Below are positions 8,315 to 35,422 of a stretch of 35,422 bases of DNA, piece after piece. The notes beneath the pieces were generated by a model that was not told the DNA's origin, did no database searches, and was given only the letters and a program-made list of their open reading frames with translations. The translations under genes and the position numbers were made by a program. The stretch's first letter is position 1. Each line of letters begins with the position of its first letter. Source of the stretch: a virus; the IMG/VR virus record IMGVR_UViG_3300048592_000389, positions 1 through 35,422 of that record, one strand, 5' to 3'.

Positions 8315-8351
8315 GGGGAGAGTCCTTGCGGGCTCTCCCCTATGTCTTTCT
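8315..8351 (+). terminator. Rho-independent terminator after head genes
   Basis: An 11-bp stem, GGGGAGAGTCC at 8315-8325 against GGGCTCTCCCC at 8330-8340 with one G-U pair and a TTGC loop, is followed by the T-rich run TATGTCTTTCT. This is the clearest intrinsic terminator in the window and divides head genes from tail genes. It also shows that the TTG at 8326 in the loop is not a real start for the next gene. Confidence 0.8.
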
Positions 8352-8361
8352 GGGGGTTCTG

Positions 8362-9432
8362 GTGGCGACGTACGCAGACATCGCGACGCGAGTGCAGGCG
8401 ATCCTCGTCTCCCCGACCGACGCATGCCTTGCGGCCATCCCGCGCTTCGTGGAGGAAGGGCAGCGGGCCGGCGAGGGGCGGCATGGCTTCCTGGCGATGG
8501 AGGGGGAGGTCTGGCTCGCCCCTGGCCTTGGCTCGACGTCGCTCGAGCTCGCTGCCGTCTTCCCGGTGCGCGGCTCCTACCTTCGCCGCCGCGTTGGCTT
8601 CGATCCGTCGATCATGAAGCTCACTCTGGAGTACAGCGAAACGTTCCTGGCGTCGAAGGTTCGCGCTGCGAACACATCGAATGGCGACTGGCTTCTCGAT
8701 CTGGTCCCGTGGCCGTCCGGATCCTTCAACGCCTCGATTCGGGCGAACCGCATCGCCTATCTGCTGTATTGGGGGATATTCGCGCAGGTTCTCCGTGTCG
8801 ATAGGCAGCCGGGGGTGTCGAACAACACGATGCTCCTTCGCTGTGAAGAGACGCTCATCAATACTGGAACGATCGCGGACGAGTTCTCCTATCGCCAGTT
8901 CACGGCAGAGTCGTTTCCGATGGAGTGGAGCGTCGAGGATGGAACGGAGCTCTACTTCGGCGCGAACACGCAGAACGGCAGGCCGAATGAGCTGCGCGAG
9001 ATGCAGGTTTCGATCGTCACGACCGCATCGACTCCTTCCTTCGTTGGCAATCGGACCTTTGAGTGCCTCCCGCCGTCGGATCTTCGCTCGTACAAGGATG
9101 GCGACAACTACGACGGTCCCTTCTACCTCGTTCGCCTTCCTTGCTACCTGTCGCTAGGAGATGGGCTGACCTGGGGCGCCGACCACGTTCCGGGGCACCA
9201 GCAGACGTGGTGGACGATCGCTGCCTCGGAGTATCTCGAGGCGTACGCCGCCGCTGAGGCATTCGCGTTCGACGAGGACTTCGTCAAGGCGGAGTTCTGG
9301 CGCGGCAAGGCTGAGACGGAGCTGTCGAAGCTCATTCGCGAGGACAAACAGGCTCGCGTTCGGACGCGCGCGATGAAGTGGAGCGGCGACCACTACCCGC
9401 AGCGCAGCCGGAAGCCGGACTGGAGGCTCTAG
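8362..9432 (+). CDS. Head-tail adaptor-like protein
   Basis: A 356-residue protein at the position of head-completion or adaptor proteins. Its N-terminus MATYADIATRVQAIL followed by a short helix pair resembles the start of podoviral adaptor proteins (P22 gp4-like families), which bind below the portal. The body is beta-rich with many aromatic residues. I chose GTG 8362, which has GGGGG just upstream; the frame is open to a TTG at 8326 but that codon is in the terminator loop. The assignment is from N-terminal resemblance and gene order. Confidence 0.6.
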   Translation: MATYADIATRVQAILVSPTDACLAAIPRFVEEGQRAGEGRHGFLAMEGEVWLAPGLGSTSLELAAVFPVRGSYLRRRVGFDPSIMKLTLEYSETFLASKVRAANTSNGDWLLDLVPWPSGSFNASIRANRIAYLLYWGIFAQVLRVDRQPGVSNNTMLLRCEETLINTGTIADEFSYRQFTAESFPMEWSVEDGTELYFGANTQNGRPNELREMQVSIVTTASTPSFVGNRTFECLPPSDLRSYKDGDNYDGPFYLVRLPCYLSLGDGLTWGADHVPGHQQTWWTIAASEYLEAYAAAEAFAFDEDFVKAEFWRGKAETELSKLIREDKQARVRTRAMKWSGDHYPQRSRKPDWRL

Positions 9433-25119: not shown

Positions 25120-25410
25120 ATGCGCACCCCCGGAATCGCCGCTCTCGCTGCGCTGCTGGCCGCCTGCGCGGGGGTCTCCTACGGGCCCGGGCACACGGTC
25201 ACGGTCGACCACGATCTGCCGTCCTGGGCGATCCAGGGCCGCCAGCCCGGAGCCTACGGGCCTGGGGTCGACGCGGACGCCACGGGGCGCCCGATCGAGT
25301 GGCGCACGGAGCAAGGCGAGCTCGAGCGCGGATCCGTGCAGCCGGATGCCTACGGTCCTGGCGTCGGGATGGACGGCTACGGGCGCCCGGTGCGGGCCCG
25401 GTCGCGCTGA
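25120..25410 (+). CDS. Small lipoprotein with internal repeat
   Basis: A 96-residue lipoprotein: signal MRTPGIAALAALLAAC with lipobox LAAC (Cys16). The mature part contains two copies of an AYGPGV-x-x-D-x-x-GRP unit, at about residues 45-60 and 78-92. AGGGAG lies 9 bp before ATG 25120. The last 34 bp overlap the 3' end of the oppositely oriented integrase gene. It may be a spanin-like partner, or a lysogeny gene placed beside the integrase; neither can be shown here. Confidence 0.65.
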   Translation: MRTPGIAALAALLAACAGVSYGPGHTVTVDHDLPSWAIQGRQPGAYGPGVDADATGRPIEWRTEQGELERGSVQPDAYGPGVGMDGYGRPVRARSR

Positions 25411-26519
25411 TCGAGCTCGAGGAACCCGCCCCCTGCATCTTCCGGGATCGCGTGCGCGTAGCGCTCGGTGATGTAGGTCGTCGAGTGCCCGACCCACCCG
25501 GAGACCGTCTTCAAGCCGCGCCCAGCGGCAAGGGCGTGAGAGACGAAAGTGTGGCGAAAATCGTGCCACCGGAGCGGCCGAACGCCGCTCTCCGGGAAGC
25601 GGGCGGCGAGCCGGCGCCACGCCCGGCGCAGGTTCGCCTCGTCGACCCTGGCGCCCGTCGCTGTGCGAAAGACGTAGCCCGGGTCCGCGCCGCCCTCGCG
25701 CAGCCGGCGCCCCGCGGCGAGCGCCTCGAGCACGTCCCCGAGCAGCGACGACGCGGCGTCGAAGGGGACCGACAGCGCCTTCCCTCCACCCTTGCGGCCG
25801 GTCTCCTCCCCGCGCGTGACCTGCCCGCGGATGTAGACGCGCCGGTTCTGGAAGTCGACGTCTTCCCAGCGGAGCCCGATCGCCTCTCCCTGGCGGGCGC
25901 CCGTGTGGGAGGCGAAGACGACGAGCGGGTACAGCCACGGCTCGTGCTTCCGGGCGAGCGCGAGGATCTTGCGAAGCTCCTCGAGCGACCACGCGTCGGG
26001 GGCGTGCTGGCGGCCGCCATGTCGGCGCTCCATCGCGGCGATCGTCTTCCGGAAGCCGCGCAGCGGGTTCACGGGGAGGTGGCGACGGTGAAGCTCGACC
26101 ACGCGCGACAGGATCGTGAGGGCGTTGCGTGCGACGGACGGCGAGCGCTTCGCCCGCACGACTGCCGTTGCGAAGGCCAGCGCGTCGCCCTCGGTGAGCG
26201 TGCGCAGGTCGCGGTCGCCGAAGTGCGGGGCGAGGTGGTGCTCGACGAGCCCGGTGGCCGTCGCCTCGTAGCCGCGCGAGAACGTCTCGCGGTAGACCTC
26301 GACCCACTCCCGACAGAGCGTCGCGATGGGGAGCGGCTCGTGCTCGTCTCGCTGCCCGAAGCGATCGCGCTGCGTCTGCTGTAGCTCCGCTTCTGCCGCC
26401 CACTCGCGCGCCTCGGCCTCGCTCGCAAAGCTCTTGCGCTTGACGCGGCGGCGGCCGCGATAGAGTGCGACCTCCCAGCAGGAGCGTTCGGCTCGGTAGC
26501 GAGTACGGATCGTCAGCAC
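25377..26519 (-). CDS. int: Tyrosine integrase
   Basis: A 380-residue tyrosine recombinase that would integrate the phage at an attachment site. Residues 1-60 form an arm-binding-like N-terminus, about 65-160 the core-binding domain, and 175-365 the catalytic domain. The active residues are visible: R209 (HTGARQGE), a Lys in GRKGGGK (243-247), H319-R322 (HDFRHTF), H345 (GWVGHS) and nucleophile Y354 (ERYAH). The start is GTG 26519, which overlaps the end of the excisionase-like gene by 7 bp, so both are probably made from one message. Its 3' end overlaps the lipoprotein gene. No host gene fragment or att core was recognised. Confidence 0.92.
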   Translation of the reverse strand: MLTIRTRYRAERSCWEVALYRGRRRVKRKSFASEAEAREWAAEAELQQTQRDRFGQRDEHEPLPIATLCREWVEVYRETFSRGYEATATGLVEHHLAPHFGDRDLRTLTEGDALAFATAVVRAKRSPSVARNALTILSRVVELHRRHLPVNPLRGFRKTIAAMERRHGGRQHAPDAWSLEELRKILALARKHEPWLYPLVVFASHTGARQGEAIGLRWEDVDFQNRRVYIRGQVTRGEETGRKGGGKALSVPFDAASSLLGDVLEALAAGRRLREGGADPGYVFRTATGARVDEANLRRAWRRLAARFPESGVRPLRWHDFRHTFVSHALAAGRGLKTVSGWVGHSTTYITERYAHAIPEDAGGGFLELDQRDRARTGRP

Positions 26520-26776
26520 GACTCGAGCGTCCCGCGCACGTCGTTCATGATCCGCGCGGCCCGCTTCGTCCCTTCCGGCGTCTCGACCGTCTCGCCGACC
26601 ATGCGGCGGACGGCGGACACGGGGACAAGGACGCAGCCGTCGACCTTGACGGCCAGCAGCGTGCCATCGTCGATGCGCCGCCAGACGGTGTTCTTCGAGA
26701 GGCCCGTGACGATCGCGACCTCGCTCGGTCGCAGGCTCGCCATCTCGCGCCAGTGCCGGATCCGGAACTCGTTCAT
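26513..26776 (-). CDS. Excisionase-like / MerR-type HTH protein
   Basis: An 87-residue protein with an N-terminal helix-turn-helix (LRPSEVAIVTGLSKNTVWRR) followed by a short wing (DGTLLAVKVDGCVLVPVSAV), the common layout of excisionases that bend DNA next to the att site. It is directly upstream of int and overlaps it. I chose ATG 26776: a promoter with TTGACA and CAGAAT ends 6 bp before it, which would make a leaderless message. A TTG at 26836 gives 20 more residues but lies upstream of that promoter. Confidence 0.75.
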   Translation of the reverse strand: MNEFRIRHWREMASLRPSEVAIVTGLSKNTVWRRIDDGTLLAVKVDGCVLVPVSAVRRMVGETVETPEGTKRAARIMNDVRGTLESC

Positions 26777-26811
26777 GCCGCCATTCTGCGGCGGAACGTT
26801 TCGGTTGTCAA
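26777..26811 (-). promoter_or_regulatory. Promoter for excisionase-int operon
   Basis: On the minus strand, TTGACA (plus coordinates 26806-26811) and CAGAAT (26783-26788) are separated by exactly 17 bp. The -10 box ends 6 bp before the ATG of the excisionase-like gene, so transcription would begin at or next to the start codon. An 11-bp CGAAACGTTNC site lies in the spacer and would block RNA polymerase when occupied. Confidence 0.65.
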
Positions 26812-26917
26812 CCCGTTTTGAGGACTTGTCCGCCAAGCCGAAGCGCGACGATTCGTGGCGGCACGCAGAGTCGCTTGCAAGATCCGGGGCTCACTCACGA
26901 GCCGTAGCATGCCCCCA

Positions 26918-26944
26918 TAACAGGGCCCAGACTACCCCCTGTTA
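26918..26944. promoter_or_regulatory. Inverted repeat TAACAGGG/CCCTGTTA
   Basis: A perfect 8-bp inverted repeat, TAACAGGG (26918-26925) and CCCTGTTA (26937-26944), with an 11-bp spacer, immediately before the middle CGAAACGTTNC site. It may be a second operator or a small hairpin in a leftward transcript; there is no T-run. Confidence 0.45.
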
Positions 26945-26964
26945 CGAAACGTTTCCATAGGACC

Positions 26965-26993
26965 TTGACACGGCCCGAGGCCATCCGTAACGT
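26965..26993 (+). promoter_or_regulatory. Rightward early promoter
   Basis: TTGACA at 26965-26970, a 17-bp spacer, and TAACGT at 26988-26993. The ATG of the HTH gene is 10 bp after the -10 box, so the message would have almost no leader. A CGAAACGTTNC site covers the -10 and another lies upstream of the -35. Confidence 0.6.
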
Positions 26994-27003
26994 TTCGTGC
27001 CAT

Positions 27004-27279
27004 ATGGCAGACCCCACTCGGATTCGACGGACGGCGGTCGAGATCGTGCGCGACCACGCGGCGACTTGGCCTTCCATTAGCGCCTTCAGCCTGAGTCTCG
27101 GGCTGAGTCGCACCCACCTCGCGCTCTGGCTCCGGGAGCCGGAGCGGGGACTCCGGGAGCCGGCGCGGAGCCGGATCGCCAAGGAGTTCGGCTGGCCGGT
27201 CGAGGTCGTCGAGCGAAAGAACGAGCCCGTGGGCCGGGTCGTTCGGGAGCTCCGGCGCCGCCAGCGGAAGGCCGCATGA
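27004..27279 (+). CDS. Small HTH regulator (Cro-like position)
   Basis: A 91-residue basic protein with a helix-turn-helix-like segment (SISAFSLSLGLSRTHLALWLR, split at residues about 23-43) and a very basic C-terminus (RRQRKAA). It is the first gene of the rightward operon and sits next to the operator-like sites, as phage Cro or repressor proteins do. ATG 27004 was preferred over an upstream in-frame codon at 26965 because the latter is inside the -35 box. The next gene overlaps by 4 bp. Whether it is an activator, a Cro or the maintenance repressor cannot be told. Confidence 0.7.
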   Translation: MADPTRIRRTAVEIVRDHAATWPSISAFSLSLGLSRTHLALWLREPERGLREPARSRIAKEFGWPVEVVERKNEPVGRVVRELRRRQRKAA

Positions 27280-28703
27280 TCGCCGGGCTTCGCACGCAGC
27301 CCTGGGATCATCAGCTCGAAGCCATCGACTCGGCCGCCGGGCATCGCGGCTTCATGCTGGCGATGGAGATGGGGACCGGCAAGAGCCTGACGGCAATCGG
27401 GCTCATGCACGCATGGGGCGCCCGCCGGGTCCTGATTGCGTGCCCGCTCTCCGTCGTCGGCGTCTGGCCCCGCGAGCTCGACCAGCACTCGGAGTGGGGC
27501 TGGCATATCGCTCGGCTCGACCGGGGCTCGGTGCGAGAGAAGGCGTCCGAGGCCGCCCGCGCGTACGAGATCGCGACGACCGACGGCCACCCGGTCGCCG
27601 TCATCGTGAATCACGAGTCGCTCTGGCGCGAGCCCTTCGGGTCGTGGGCCAAGCGAACCCCCTGGGATCTACTCGTTGTCGACGAGAGTCACCGGGCGAA
27701 GGCGCCGGGCGGGAAGCTCTCTCGGTACCTGCAAGCGCTCGGCATGCAGGTCAAGCGATGCCTCGCGCTCACCGGGACGCCGCTCCCGCACAGCCCGCTC
27801 GACGCGTACGGACAGTTCCGATTCTTCGCGCCCTCTGCCTATGGCCGGTCGTTTCAGCGCATGCGCGACCGCTACGCCGTGATGGGCGGGTACGAGAACA
27901 AGCAGGTCGTCGGCTGGCGGAACATGGACGAGTTCGAGCGCGTGTTCTCGAGCCGCAGCTTCCAGGCCCGGAAGCAGGACGTGCTCGACCTGCCCGAGGA
28001 GATCGACGCGCGGCGCACGTGCCGGCTCGAGCCGCGCGCCATGAAGCTCTATCGGCAGCTCGAAGAGATGTTCTGGATCGACGTCGGCAAGGGAGAGGTC
28101 ACGGCGAGCAACGCGCTCGTGCAGCTCCTCCGGCTCCAGCAAATCACGAGCGGGACGATCGGCACCGACGACGGGGAGCTAGAGCACGTCTCGACGGCGA
28201 AGGAAGAGCTGTTCGCCGACGTGCTGTCCGACTTCCCGCAGGGCGAGCCGATCATCGCCTTCGCTCGCTTCCATGCCGACCTCGACGCGATCCATCGGGT
28301 GTGTGAGAAGCAGGGGCGTCGCCACGGTGAGCTCTCTGGCCGGCGCCGCGACCTCACGCCGGAAGCGCGCATGCCGGAAGATATCGACGTGCTCGCAGTG
28401 CAGATCCAGAGCGGCGGCGTCGGCATCGACCTGACGCGAGCATCGACCGCGATCTACTACTCGCTCGGCTTCTCACTCGGGGACTACCTCCAGAGTCGAA
28501 GCCGGCTGCATCGTCCGGGCCAGCGACGCAATGTCACCTTCCTGCATCTCGAGGCCGAGCAGACGATCGACGGGAAGGTGCTCGACGCGCTTTCGAAGCG
28601 ACAGAAGGTCGTCGAGCGCATCCTTGCGCGCGCCCATGCTTCCGGATCCGCCGCCTCCAACCCGTCGAGCGGCGACGATGGGTCAAGGCACGCCCTGCCG
28701 TGA
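27276..28703 (+). CDS. SNF2-family (SF2) helicase
   Basis: A 475-residue helicase/translocase with all SF2 motifs in order: motif I EMGTGKS at 31-37, motif II VVDESHR at 134-140, motif III LTGTP at 165-169, motif V GGVGIDL at 380-386 and motif VI QSRSRLHRPGQ at 406-416. Phage members of this family take part in replication or DNA remodelling. It lacks extra domains and is of normal phage size. The ATG overlaps the HTH gene's stop (ATGA). Confidence 0.9.
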   Translation: MIAGLRTQPWDHQLEAIDSAAGHRGFMLAMEMGTGKSLTAIGLMHAWGARRVLIACPLSVVGVWPRELDQHSEWGWHIARLDRGSVREKASEAARAYEIATTDGHPVAVIVNHESLWREPFGSWAKRTPWDLLVVDESHRAKAPGGKLSRYLQALGMQVKRCLALTGTPLPHSPLDAYGQFRFFAPSAYGRSFQRMRDRYAVMGGYENKQVVGWRNMDEFERVFSSRSFQARKQDVLDLPEEIDARRTCRLEPRAMKLYRQLEEMFWIDVGKGEVTASNALVQLLRLQQITSGTIGTDDGELEHVSTAKEELFADVLSDFPQGEPIIAFARFHADLDAIHRVCEKQGRRHGELSGRRRDLTPEARMPEDIDVLAVQIQSGGVGIDLTRASTAIYYSLGFSLGDYLQSRSRLHRPGQRRNVTFLHLEAEQTIDGKVLDALSKRQKVVERILARAHASGSAASNPSSGDDGSRHALP

Positions 28704-30973: not shown

Positions 30974-31013
30974 GGGCTCGGCCGGGACCTGACTGGCCGG
31001 GCCCTCTTCTCCT
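30974..31013 (+). terminator. Terminator-like hairpin before the PrimPol gene
   Basis: GGGCTCGGCC (30974-30983) can pair over 10 bp, with one G-U, with GGCCGGGCCC (30995-31004), followed by TCTTCTCCT. The T-run is mixed with C, so termination may be partial and serve to lower expression of the replication genes downstream. Confidence 0.5.
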
Positions 31014-31028
31014 GGGGGGGGGTGAGGG

Positions 31029-32564
31029 GTGTCGATTCCTGGGCTGGACGTTCCGGCGATCGCCGAGCTGGCCGCGCGCCCGCAATGGGTGTGCTGGCGA
31101 TACGAGACGCGCGCCGGGAAGCCCACGAAGGTCCCCATCACGCCAAGCGGAACGCCAGCCTCCGTCACGAACCCGCGCACGTGGTCTAGCTTCGCCGATG
31201 CGTGCGAGGCGGTGGTTCGGAACGAGACGCTCGAGGGCGTCGGCTACGTACTCTCCCCTGGCGACCCGTACGTCGGTATCGACCTCGATGGGTGCCTCGA
31301 CGCGAAGGGCGTCCCCAACGCGATCGCCTGCGAGTTCATCGACTCGCTCGGGTCCTACGCAGAGGTCACCCCCAGCGGGCGCGGCCTGCACGTGTGGATC
31401 AGGGCGTCGCTTCCTGGCGGCCGCGGTCGCCGGAAAGGGCAGATCGAGGTCTACGCAGAGGCCAGATACCTCACCGTCACCGGGAAGCAGTTCGGCGACG
31501 CAGAGACGATCGAGGAGCGCTCCCCGCAGCTTGCCGAGCTCGTGAAGCGGCACCTTGGCGAAGAGGCAACGCAGCGAGCGCAGGGACCCGGGGTGCTCGA
31601 GGGCGTTCGCGTCGATCGTGACTCCGAGCCCCCGTCCGCGAAGCTCTCCGCCATCCTCGCAAATGATCGCAAGTTCAAGCGGACCTGGGAGCGCAACCGC
31701 CCAGACCTGCGAGACGACCCCTCGAGCCTCGACGCGTCGCTGGCCTACCTCGCCGCGAGTGCGGACTGGTCGAAGCAAGAGATCGTGAACCTCCTCATTG
31801 CATTCAACCGGGATTCGGGGCGCATCGCCAAGGTGCTGCGCACTGACAGCAACGGGGTCTACGACTACCTGCAAAGGACGCTGGAATGGTCGCTGCGCGC
31901 TGTGCGCTGCCAGGATTCCGAGCGGACCATGATCGAGGGTCTCGCCGAGCAGCAGGACGAAGAGCGCTACGACGCGGCGGCGCAGGAGAGCTCCGATCAT
32001 CTCCTGCAAGAGGTGAGCGCGGACCTGGGGCTCCCGATCAAGCGCGTGATCCAGCGCGGCCTCGAGACGCCACGGTACTACGTCGTGATCGGCGACGCGG
32101 AGGTGAACCTCGGCGGCCCGTCGTCGCTGCTCAATCAGAATGCGTTCCAGGCGGCGATTCTCGGCACGACGCGGACCATCATGAAGCCGCTGAAGACTCC
32201 GAAGTGGCTTCGCATCGTCCAAAGGATGGTGCGCGCCGCGGAGCTCGAGGACGTTGGCGAGGGGGAGTCGCGCCACCAGACACGGCAGCTTCTCGTTGAC
32301 CTCTTGCACCGCGAGCCGCCGGCAGAGGCGACCGACGACAAGGTACTGAGCGGCGTAACGGTCTCGAAGGACGACGCGACCTACATCGCCGTGAAATCAC
32401 TCCTCGCGATCGCCCGGAACTGGTGGGGCGAGAACCTGAGCGTTCGACAGCTCTGCGAGCGGCTTCGCGAAGTGGGCTGTGAGCCGCAAGCCCTGCCGGC
32501 GAAGACACCGGAAGGGAAGGTGACGACGCGTAGCTATTGGAGAGTCCCGAATGGACTCGTCTAG
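31029..32564 (+). CDS. Primase-polymerase (PrimPol, AEP-type)
   Basis: A 511-residue protein with an archaeo-eukaryotic primase domain in residues about 15-170. The sequence shows NPRTWSSFADA (48-58), the catalytic pair GIDLDGC (D85, D87), the nucleotide site TPSGRGLHVWI (H121), and the third acidic region QIEVYAEARYLTVTG (E140). The C-terminal half is helical with a winged-helix-like end and no Walker A site, so it is not a helicase. It would prime phage DNA synthesis beside the two helicases. GTG 31029 follows a run of G; it overlaps the next gene by 14 bp. Confidence 0.85.
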   Translation: MSIPGLDVPAIAELAARPQWVCWRYETRAGKPTKVPITPSGTPASVTNPRTWSSFADACEAVVRNETLEGVGYVLSPGDPYVGIDLDGCLDAKGVPNAIACEFIDSLGSYAEVTPSGRGLHVWIRASLPGGRGRRKGQIEVYAEARYLTVTGKQFGDAETIEERSPQLAELVKRHLGEEATQRAQGPGVLEGVRVDRDSEPPSAKLSAILANDRKFKRTWERNRPDLRDDPSSLDASLAYLAASADWSKQEIVNLLIAFNRDSGRIAKVLRTDSNGVYDYLQRTLEWSLRAVRCQDSERTMIEGLAEQQDEERYDAAAQESSDHLLQEVSADLGLPIKRVIQRGLETPRYYVVIGDAEVNLGGPSSLLNQNAFQAAILGTTRTIMKPLKTPKWLRIVQRMVRAAELEDVGEGESRHQTRQLLVDLLHREPPAEATDDKVLSGVTVSKDDATYIAVKSLLAIARNWWGENLSVRQLCERLREVGCEPQALPAKTPEGKVTTRSYWRVPNGLV

Positions 32565-34382: not shown

Positions 34383-34657
34383 GGTGGCTGGTGTCTGGAA
34401 CGTGGACTGGATACATCAGTTCGCAAATGCGAGAAGTGCATCGCGAGGTCGTGAAAGACCGAAAGCTGGCAGAGGCAATCCAGAAACTCGGCTCCATCCG
34501 GTACACCGACGGAACGAAACTCTACCTGTTCGTTCGGGAGTTGAACCGCAGCGAGCGAGTTAAAGCCATGGACAGCTACGGGTCATTGATTCGTGACTGC
34601 ATCAAGCATGGAGTGGACGCCGTTAGCGAACTGCCGACGGCGCGGGAGGTAGAGTGA
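34379..34657 (+). CDS. Hypothetical small early protein
   Basis: A 92-residue protein (ATG 34379 in the previous stop). It has a short beta-like start (RWLVSGTWTGYISSQ), a helical middle and ends in LPTAREVE. The last codons carry the GGGAGGT ribosome site of the next gene. I do not recognise it. Confidence 0.6.
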   Translation: MRWLVSGTWTGYISSQMREVHREVVKDRKLAEAIQKLGSIRYTDGTKLYLFVRELNRSERVKAMDSYGSLIRDCIKHGVDAVSELPTAREVE

Positions 34658-34968
34658 TGAAGATTTGGCTCGATGATGAGCGACCCGCGCCGGAGGGCTG
34701 GAGACATGTCAAGACCTTCGACGAGTTCCGCGTCGCCTTCGAGACGGGGCCGGTCGAGGCCGTGTCCTTCGACAATGACCTCGGATGGGGTCAGCGCGAG
34801 GGTTGGGAGATCGCGAACTGGCTGCGCGATGAGGTAGTAGCAGGTCGCATCACCGCGCCGATCAGTCTCCGCGTCCACACGGCCAACCCTGCGGCGCGCC
34901 CTCGCATCGAGGCGACGCTGCGAGAGATTCGTTCGCTTGCGCCAACGGCGCGGGAGGTGACGCGGTGA
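34657..34968 (+). CDS. cREC-type receiver-like protein
   Basis: A 103-residue protein with the motifs of a family I recall as cREC_REC (cyclic-phosphate processing receiver domain): MKIWLDDERPAPEGW at the start, VSFDNDLGWGQREGWEIANW in the middle and RVHTANPAARPRIEATL near the end. It keeps two acidic patches (DDE, DNDLG) and a HTANP loop. ATG 34657 was chosen over GTG 34654 because GGGAGGT ends 6 bp before it. The biochemical role is unproven; members have been linked to nucleotide or RNA-end chemistry in conflict systems, and here it could be a counter-defence gene. Confidence 0.75.
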   Translation: MKIWLDDERPAPEGWRHVKTFDEFRVAFETGPVEAVSFDNDLGWGQREGWEIANWLRDEVVAGRITAPISLRVHTANPAARPRIEATLREIRSLAPTAREVTR

Positions 34969-35114
34969 TCGGCGACCTACCTAGCCACGCAATCACCCTG
35001 GCCCTGCGCCGCTGCGGACGCTGGATCGTTTGCGACTGGGATGGGCGGTGGCGCAAGGTGGAACCGCTCCGGGAGCAAAGTCGGTGGGCCAGACTGAGGA
35101 GGATGTTTCGATGA
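34965..35114 (+). CDS. Small Arg/Trp-rich protein
   Basis: A 49-residue ORF (GTG 34965, GTGA overlap; GGAGGT ends 6 bp upstream). It is rich in Arg and Trp, with WIVCDWDGRWRKVEPL in its middle. It links two overlapping genes, so it is probably translated. No family is recognised. Confidence 0.55.
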   Translation: MIGDLPSHAITLALRRCGRWIVCDWDGRWRKVEPLREQSRWARLRRMFR

Positions 35115-35422
35115 GTACCGACGCGCGCCAGGAGGCGCTGACCGCCGACACGTTGGTCAAGATCACCGGCCTGAACGGCGAGGCGTATCACGGCGGCACC
35201 GGCAAGTGGCCACTCCCGCGCGGCAAGCGCCCCGGCGCATGGCTGCGAGTCACAGGGCCGCTGGTGCCGTGCAAGAATGGCCTTCACGTTTGCACTATCC
35301 GACAGGCGCTCGAATCGTGGTCCGGTCCTGCGATGTGGGTTGTGGAGACGCGCGGCGAGTCGATTGACCGCGGAAGCAATATCGTCGTGCGCGAGGCTCG
35401 CCTCCTCTCGCGCGTCGAGGAG
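35111..35422 (+). CDS. Partial gene: GLHVC-motif phage protein (3' end missing)
   Basis: The frame from ATG 35111 (overlapping the previous stop) is open to the end of the window, giving 104 residues. It contains PLPRGKRPGAW, VPCKNGLHVCTIRQALE and MWVVETRGESI, then VREARLLSRVEE. Small phage proteins with GxHxC followed by a WVxExRGE segment and an RxARL end occur in many genomes, as I recall, without a known function. Truncated by the window. Confidence 0.6.
   Translation, partial: MSTDARQEALTADTLVKITGLNGEAYHGGTGKWPLPRGKRPGAWLRVTGPLVPCKNGLHVCTIRQALESWSGPAMWVVETRGESIDRGSNIVVREARLLSRVEE

Follow-up and report, generated by a model that had tools for sequence, protein, structure and literature searches.

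Gene organization around the control region

A 227-base gap at positions 26777-27003 of the IMG/VR virus record IMGVR_UViG_3300048592_000389 lies between two oppositely transcribed gene sets (Table 1). The window is the whole stretch of DNA that was analysed, 35,422 bases with a G+C content of 0.68. On the left of the gap, a gene encoding an 87-aa excisionase-like protein precedes that of a tyrosine integrase; on the right, a gene encoding a 91-aa protein is joined by an ATGA overlap to the gene of an SNF2-family helicase, with further replication genes downstream. As the first two genes overlap in each operon, each small regulator is likely to be made together with its downstream enzyme. Codon-position G+C favours both small genes being real, with GC3 values of 0.95 (87-aa protein) and 0.86 (91-aa protein). 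The attachment site was not located.

The gene set of the record includes a tyrosine integrase, a large terminase, a portal protein, a major head protein, an SNF2 helicase, a primase and a UvrD-type helicase, and this combination of integrase, terminase/portal/head and replication genes is fairly read as that of a temperate tailed phage. The record is probably incomplete, because no terminal repeat was found in it and an ORF (35110-35422), preceded by a good Shine-Dalgarno sequence, continues past its right end. Close to the same end is encoded a protein with a cyclic-phosphate processing receiver (cREC) domain (34654-34968; Pfam E 1.6e-22). A 96-nt tRNA-Pro (ggg) called by ARAGORN at 30975-31070 overlaps the predicted start of the primase at 31029; it is likely that either this call is false or the primase start is mis-set.

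Table 1. Genes and sequence features of the divergent region, in window coordinates
Feature	Position	Strand	Description
Tyrosine integrase	25377..26519	-	Second gene of leftward operon; GTG start; Pfam Phage_integrase E 1.2e-20; phrog_1 E 1.4e-53
87-aa excisionase-like HTH_17 protein	26513..26776	-	First gene of leftward operon; 3' end overlaps start of integrase gene by 7 bases
Leftward promoter candidate TTGACA-17-CAGAAT	26783..26811	-	-35 at 26811-26806, -10 at 26788-26783; 10/12 consensus bases; called by promoter scan
Operator-like palindrome, site 1, GGAACGTTTC	26793..26802		In spacer of leftward promoter
Inverted repeat TAACAGGG-11-CCCTGTTA	26918..26944		Perfect 8-bp arms; abuts site 2; TAACAGGG unique in window
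Operator-like palindrome, site 2, GAAACGTTTC	26946..26955		Perfect; about 10 bp upstream of rightward -35
Rightward promoter candidate TTGACA-17-TAACGT	26965..26993	+	-35 at 26965-26970, -10 at 26988-26993; 9/12 consensus bases; missed by promoter scan
Operator-like palindrome, site 3, GTAACGTTTC	26987..26996		Covers rightward -10
91-aa protein, probable small HTH regulator	27004..27279	+	First gene of rightward operon
SNF2-family helicase	27276..28703	+	First of the replication genes; SNF2-rel_dom E 4.4e-18; phrog_62 E 1.7e-106

Promoter candidates and predicted transcript starts

A preliminary description of this DNA had placed two promoters at the edges of the gap, and their positions and spacers proved exact when checked base by base. 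The promoters are back-to-back, with their -35 elements about 150 bp apart. TTGACA occurs 7 times in the 35.4-kb window, and only these two occurrences have NANNNT at a distance of 17 bp. The rightward -10 element is poor, matching the consensus at 3 of its 6 bases.

The leftward ATG at 26776 lies 6 bp past its -10 element and the rightward ATG at 27004 lies 10 bp past its own, as had been described. No Shine-Dalgarno sequence was found upstream of either the 87-aa or the 91-aa gene; purine-rich sequences of the Shine-Dalgarno type are present at many other genes of the phage. From the usual distance between a -10 element and the transcription start, the leftward transcript is predicted to begin with the A of its ATG or a base beside it, and thus to be leaderless, and the rightward transcript is predicted to carry a leader of about 3-5 nt. 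These short distances and the lack of Shine-Dalgarno sequences are consistent with the earlier proposal that the messages would begin at or near the ATG.

Operator-like palindromes in the gap

The 11-bp motif CGAAACGTTNC is present exactly at 26793-26803 (minus strand), 26945-26955 (plus strand) and 26987-26997 (minus strand), and so all three copies are where they had been reported, in the leftward spacer, upstream of the rightward -35 element and over the rightward -10 element. It is better described as a 10-bp palindrome, GNAACGTTNC, of which there are four copies in the window, three of them inside the gap. Sites 1 and 2 are 153 bp apart, and sites 2 and 3 are 41 bp apart. The rightward -10 element is contained in site 3, and the one base of site 3 that departs from the palindrome is the first T of that hexamer. 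Scanning the whole window for the motif, part of a check that the preliminary description had proposed, gave one further exact copy of CGAAACGTTNC at 8637-8647 (palindrome 8638-8647), which is within a structural gene (ORF 8326-9432) and is probably there by chance.

In 1000 Markov-model copies of the window, the mean number of sites was 0.27; at least four sites were present in none of the copies, nor were three sites within 230 bp. In a generic test, 1 of 500 shuffles of the gap contained some 11-mer in three copies. Clustering statistics for 11-mers picked arbitrarily throughout the window were set aside as uninformative, because GC-rich coding stretches score too. That the three copies are a coincidence, or are non-transcriptional sites such as those of a host factor or of recombination, is given very little credence. 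The exact copy in the structural gene would suit such an explanation, as would the lack of comparative support and the outcome of scanning viral contigs for paired sites and for sites in spacers, the matches of which were mostly unrelated or coding; it is opposed by the Markov result and by the location of the sites on the spacer of one promoter and the -10 element of the other, the window having no others of this form.

The inverted repeat that abuts site 2 may be the operator of a second, different protein. No direct repeats spaced 9-12 bp were found in 26777-27003. The gap was earlier read as a compact, divergent control region, and this is supported: it lies between the xis-int operon and the early replication operon and has operator-like sites on both promoters.

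Candidate regulatory proteins

The 87-aa protein matches phrog_66 (E 1.5e-5), annotated as 'excisionase and transcriptional regulator', TIGR01764 (E 2.3e-4) and HTH_17 (E 2.8e-5); its Pfam and NCBIfam scores are under the curated cut-offs, and its gene overlaps that of the tyrosine integrase. No relative of it was found in viral contigs. Pfam and NCBIfam gave no match to the 91-aa protein, and PDB sequences none that is significant. Against an XRE-type HTH profile built from retrieved phage proteins it scored 7.0 bits, with its best stretch in register at residues 25-66, a score that was reached by none of 500 shuffles and by 5 of 3546 reversed decoys. Among 39 CDSs tested with this profile, only the 87-aa protein (14.7 bits) and the 91-aa protein were HTH-like, and the next best scored 0.4. 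AlphaFold models made without an alignment had mean pLDDT values of 62 and 52, both of low confidence. For the model of the 91-aa protein, no significant structural match was found with Foldseek. On this modest evidence, the 91-aa protein weakly resembles an HTH protein. Its relatives were sought in viral contigs, genome contigs and phage records and none were found; the sole phage match (E 0.3), in a 4.8-kb ORF beside a tail gene, was dismissed as chance.

The preliminary description had named either the HTH protein or the excisionase-like protein as the likely binder of the motif. The former stays a candidate, with a weak HTH resemblance, and the latter is weakened by the lack of direct repeats in the gap. 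Were the 87-aa protein the binder after all, it would be a repressor resembling C, encoded in a leftward operon for lysogeny, and would repress the promoter of that operon as well as the lytic promoter on the right. In P2, the repressor and the integrase are likewise arranged together, as C-int. The 87-aa protein is the best-supported HTH protein of the record (by its profile score and phrog_66) and is likely co-transcribed with int, and control of lysogeny by excisionase-type proteins has been described for Apl of phage 186 (PMC7498355) and for the Pf excisionase (PMC7379572). However, the described regulators of this type, including lambda Xis and 186 Apl, assemble head-to-tail on direct repeats that recur at intervals of about one helical turn, and their binding to a lone site is weak (PMC7498355), whereas the gap has single palindromes at much wider spacings and no such repeats. 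The 87-aa protein is therefore a weaker candidate than the 91-aa protein, and we regard its role as the binder as unlikely. Single, near-perfect palindromes are what a symmetric dimer would be expected to bind, and this would suit the 91-aa protein better. The overlap of its gene with the helicase gene is as expected for a regulator of a lytic operon.

Resemblance of the palindrome to the Cra operator

The consensus operator of the Escherichia coli LacI-family regulator Cra (FruR) is GCTGAAACGTTTCA (PMC11157272). Its central 10 bp are GAAACGTTTC, identical to site 2, and sites 1 and 3 differ from them by one base. The word itself thus exists among known operators, and its designation as previously unknown was too strong; a host regulator of the LacI family becomes a live rival for the binder. 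There are also differences: the T that precedes GAAAC in the Cra consensus is C at all three phage sites, the flanking T...A is unmatched, no LacI-family gene was seen in the phage, and the phage setting is one of early promoters.

Two unrelated viral contigs have similar sequences. In one (L015:2940-3055), five GAAACGTTTC palindromes lie within about 110 bp near terminase genes, which suggests that the palindrome is used elsewhere as a multi-copy site. In the other, which is AT-richer, a TTGACA-TATAAT promoter (L125:5912-5930) contains TGAAACGTTTCA between its two hexamers and is located upstream of a 269-aa ORF.

If a Cra/FruR-like host regulator of the LacI/GalR family occupied the sites, it would couple the early promoters of the phage to host metabolism. 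The match to the Cra consensus, the absence of a LacI-type protein among the phage proteins examined and the L125 promoter are in keeping with this explanation, but the C that replaces the flanking T of Cra recurs at every site, and three sites across both early promoters fit a phage-encoded repressor better. We consider a host regulator improbable. An extended form of the proposal, in which the xis-int and replication genes as one early programme are subject to a LacI/Cra-type host regulator, or to a phage mimic of its specificity, with three GNAACGTTNC sites as the targets, two leaderless messages and no CI-type repressor of the phage's own, is more doubtful still.

Proposed regulation of the early operons

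The sequence elements, gene order, gene overlaps, statistics and weak HTH resemblance that were observed are tentatively combined in the following reading, to which we assign slightly less than an even chance: the gap is a divergent early control region, in which a dimer of the 91-aa protein on GNAACGTTNC palindromes damps its own operon and shuts off xis-int. Two sigma-70-type promoters would fire outward, the left one into the genes of the excisionase-like protein and the integrase, and the right one into those of the 91-aa HTH protein, the helicase and the replication proteins; the messages from both would be leaderless or almost so. The palindromes would be bound by a small symmetric dimer, most likely of the 91-aa protein. 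Occupation of site 1 would block the leftward promoter and occupation of site 3 the rightward promoter, and binding at site 2 would probably be cooperative with that at site 3, which is 41 bp or about four helical turns distant. The 91-aa protein would be a regulator of the Cro/Apl/Cox type, exerting negative feedback on its own operon through the rightward site. This reading predicts the activity of the promoters, their start sites, the identity of the binder, its cooperativity and the biological role of the region. By analogy, one protein that represses both early operons from three sites might behave either as Cro or Apl does or as a CI-type repressor does.

In favour of regulation by the 91-aa protein, the motif sites are at functional positions of both promoters, at a density far above chance, and the gene order of phage THSA-485A is comparable. 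Against it stand the weak HTH call of the 91-aa protein, the poor rightward -10 element, the identity of the motif with the operator core of a known LacI-family regulator, and a maintenance repressor that is not accounted for. Of the candidate lysis-lysogeny switch that had been proposed, the evidence reaches as far as the divergent control region and not to a complete switch. A motif shared by the two promoters implies that they are repressed together rather than in mutual exclusion. Joint repression by one protein is not in itself bistable, because nothing here indicates mutual exclusion between the two directions.

No maintenance repressor was seen beside the operators, where the leftward genes are those of the excisionase-like protein and the integrase, and only two HTH-like proteins are encoded in the probably incomplete record. 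This function could belong to the 87-aa protein, to a host protein or to a gene outside the record. A separate CI-like maintenance repressor, encoded in a missing part of the phage, might also be the true binder of the motif, with both divergent HTH proteins otherwise employed. The signs of incompleteness at the ends of the record are compatible with such a gene, and CI-type repressors silence PL and PR through one motif on both. However, immunity genes usually adjoin their operators, and here both flanks are fully taken up by the two operons; we think it rather improbable that the binder is such a protein.

Searches for related control regions

Phage records, viral contigs and one-per-species genomes were searched for a similar control region and none was found, and a DNA similarity search with the gap returned nothing. 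The integrase has distant matches only (20-35% identity). A profile scan with the SNF2 helicase retained 80 contigs, the best at 47% identity, none of which shares the regulators or the motif cluster. The large terminase has no near relative, the distant ones being at 24-28%, and the portal protein has no phage match and three weak matches (23-25% identity), which come from sampled genomes and are spread over three phyla. A paired-motif scan of viral contigs yielded 3 contigs with no comparable switch; a scan with the promoter-spacer pattern yielded 56 contigs, approximately the chance expectation; one promoter among them is suggestive (L125), and another match is an artefact of coding repeats (L160). 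With no homologous control region and no relative of either regulator found, nothing in the proposed regulation is supported by conservation.

The gap is probably the operator set of a small repressor, ordinary in its design but with proteins for which no close relative is known. If the reading centred on the 91-aa protein is correct, this is a compact control region for early genes in a phage lineage to which the collections searched contain nothing closely related, with two small regulators that have no detectable homologues and an operator word that coincides with that of host LacI-family regulators. It would leave the view of phage switches unchanged unless the binder proves to be a host metabolic regulator.

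Comparison with known phage switches

The lambda cI transcript, a standard leaderless mRNA, is also a phage regulator message that begins at its AUG (PMC9031893), but in the present phage a leader that is absent or almost absent is predicted for each of the two divergent messages. The CI/MOR switch of phage TP901-1 has back-to-back divergent promoters and three operators for one repressor, one of which overlaps the lytic promoter (PMC7250872), and the present locus resembles it in having back-to-back promoters and three sites, one of them over the rightward promoter. TP901-1, however, encodes CI in one direction, where here the excisionase-like protein and the integrase are encoded and no CI was seen, and its operators include one with its centre between the two promoters and another within mor; the -35 elements here are about 150 bp apart. 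Apl of phage 186 and Cox of P2 are likewise small HTH proteins acting at early promoters, and Apl represses both of them (PMC7498355), but the sites of Apl consist of direct repeats in series at intervals of 10-11 bp rather than isolated palindromes, and the promoters of 186 are face to face rather than back-to-back. Thermoanaerobacterium phage THSA-485A has a similar gene order, with an XRE repressor leftward and HTH genes rightward, followed by an SNF2 helicase that is 35% identical; it differs in that its XRE repressor is annotated and its recombinase is of the resolvase type, not a tyrosine integrase, and no similarity was seen between its regulators and those of this phage.

Divergent early promoter candidates with operator-like sites on or beside both, a feature of CI/Cro-type switches, are present in sequence, and a maintenance repressor gene adjoining the operators is absent from the seemingly incomplete record; the one-turn direct-repeat operators of Apl/Cox-type switches are absent from 26777-27003. 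Membership in the TP901-1 or the 186 class is not claimed, because each differs from the present locus in a defining feature. The evidence partly supports the reading of this control region as a switch; the region is a further instance of a type known from phages, for which the 91-aa protein is the proposed binder.
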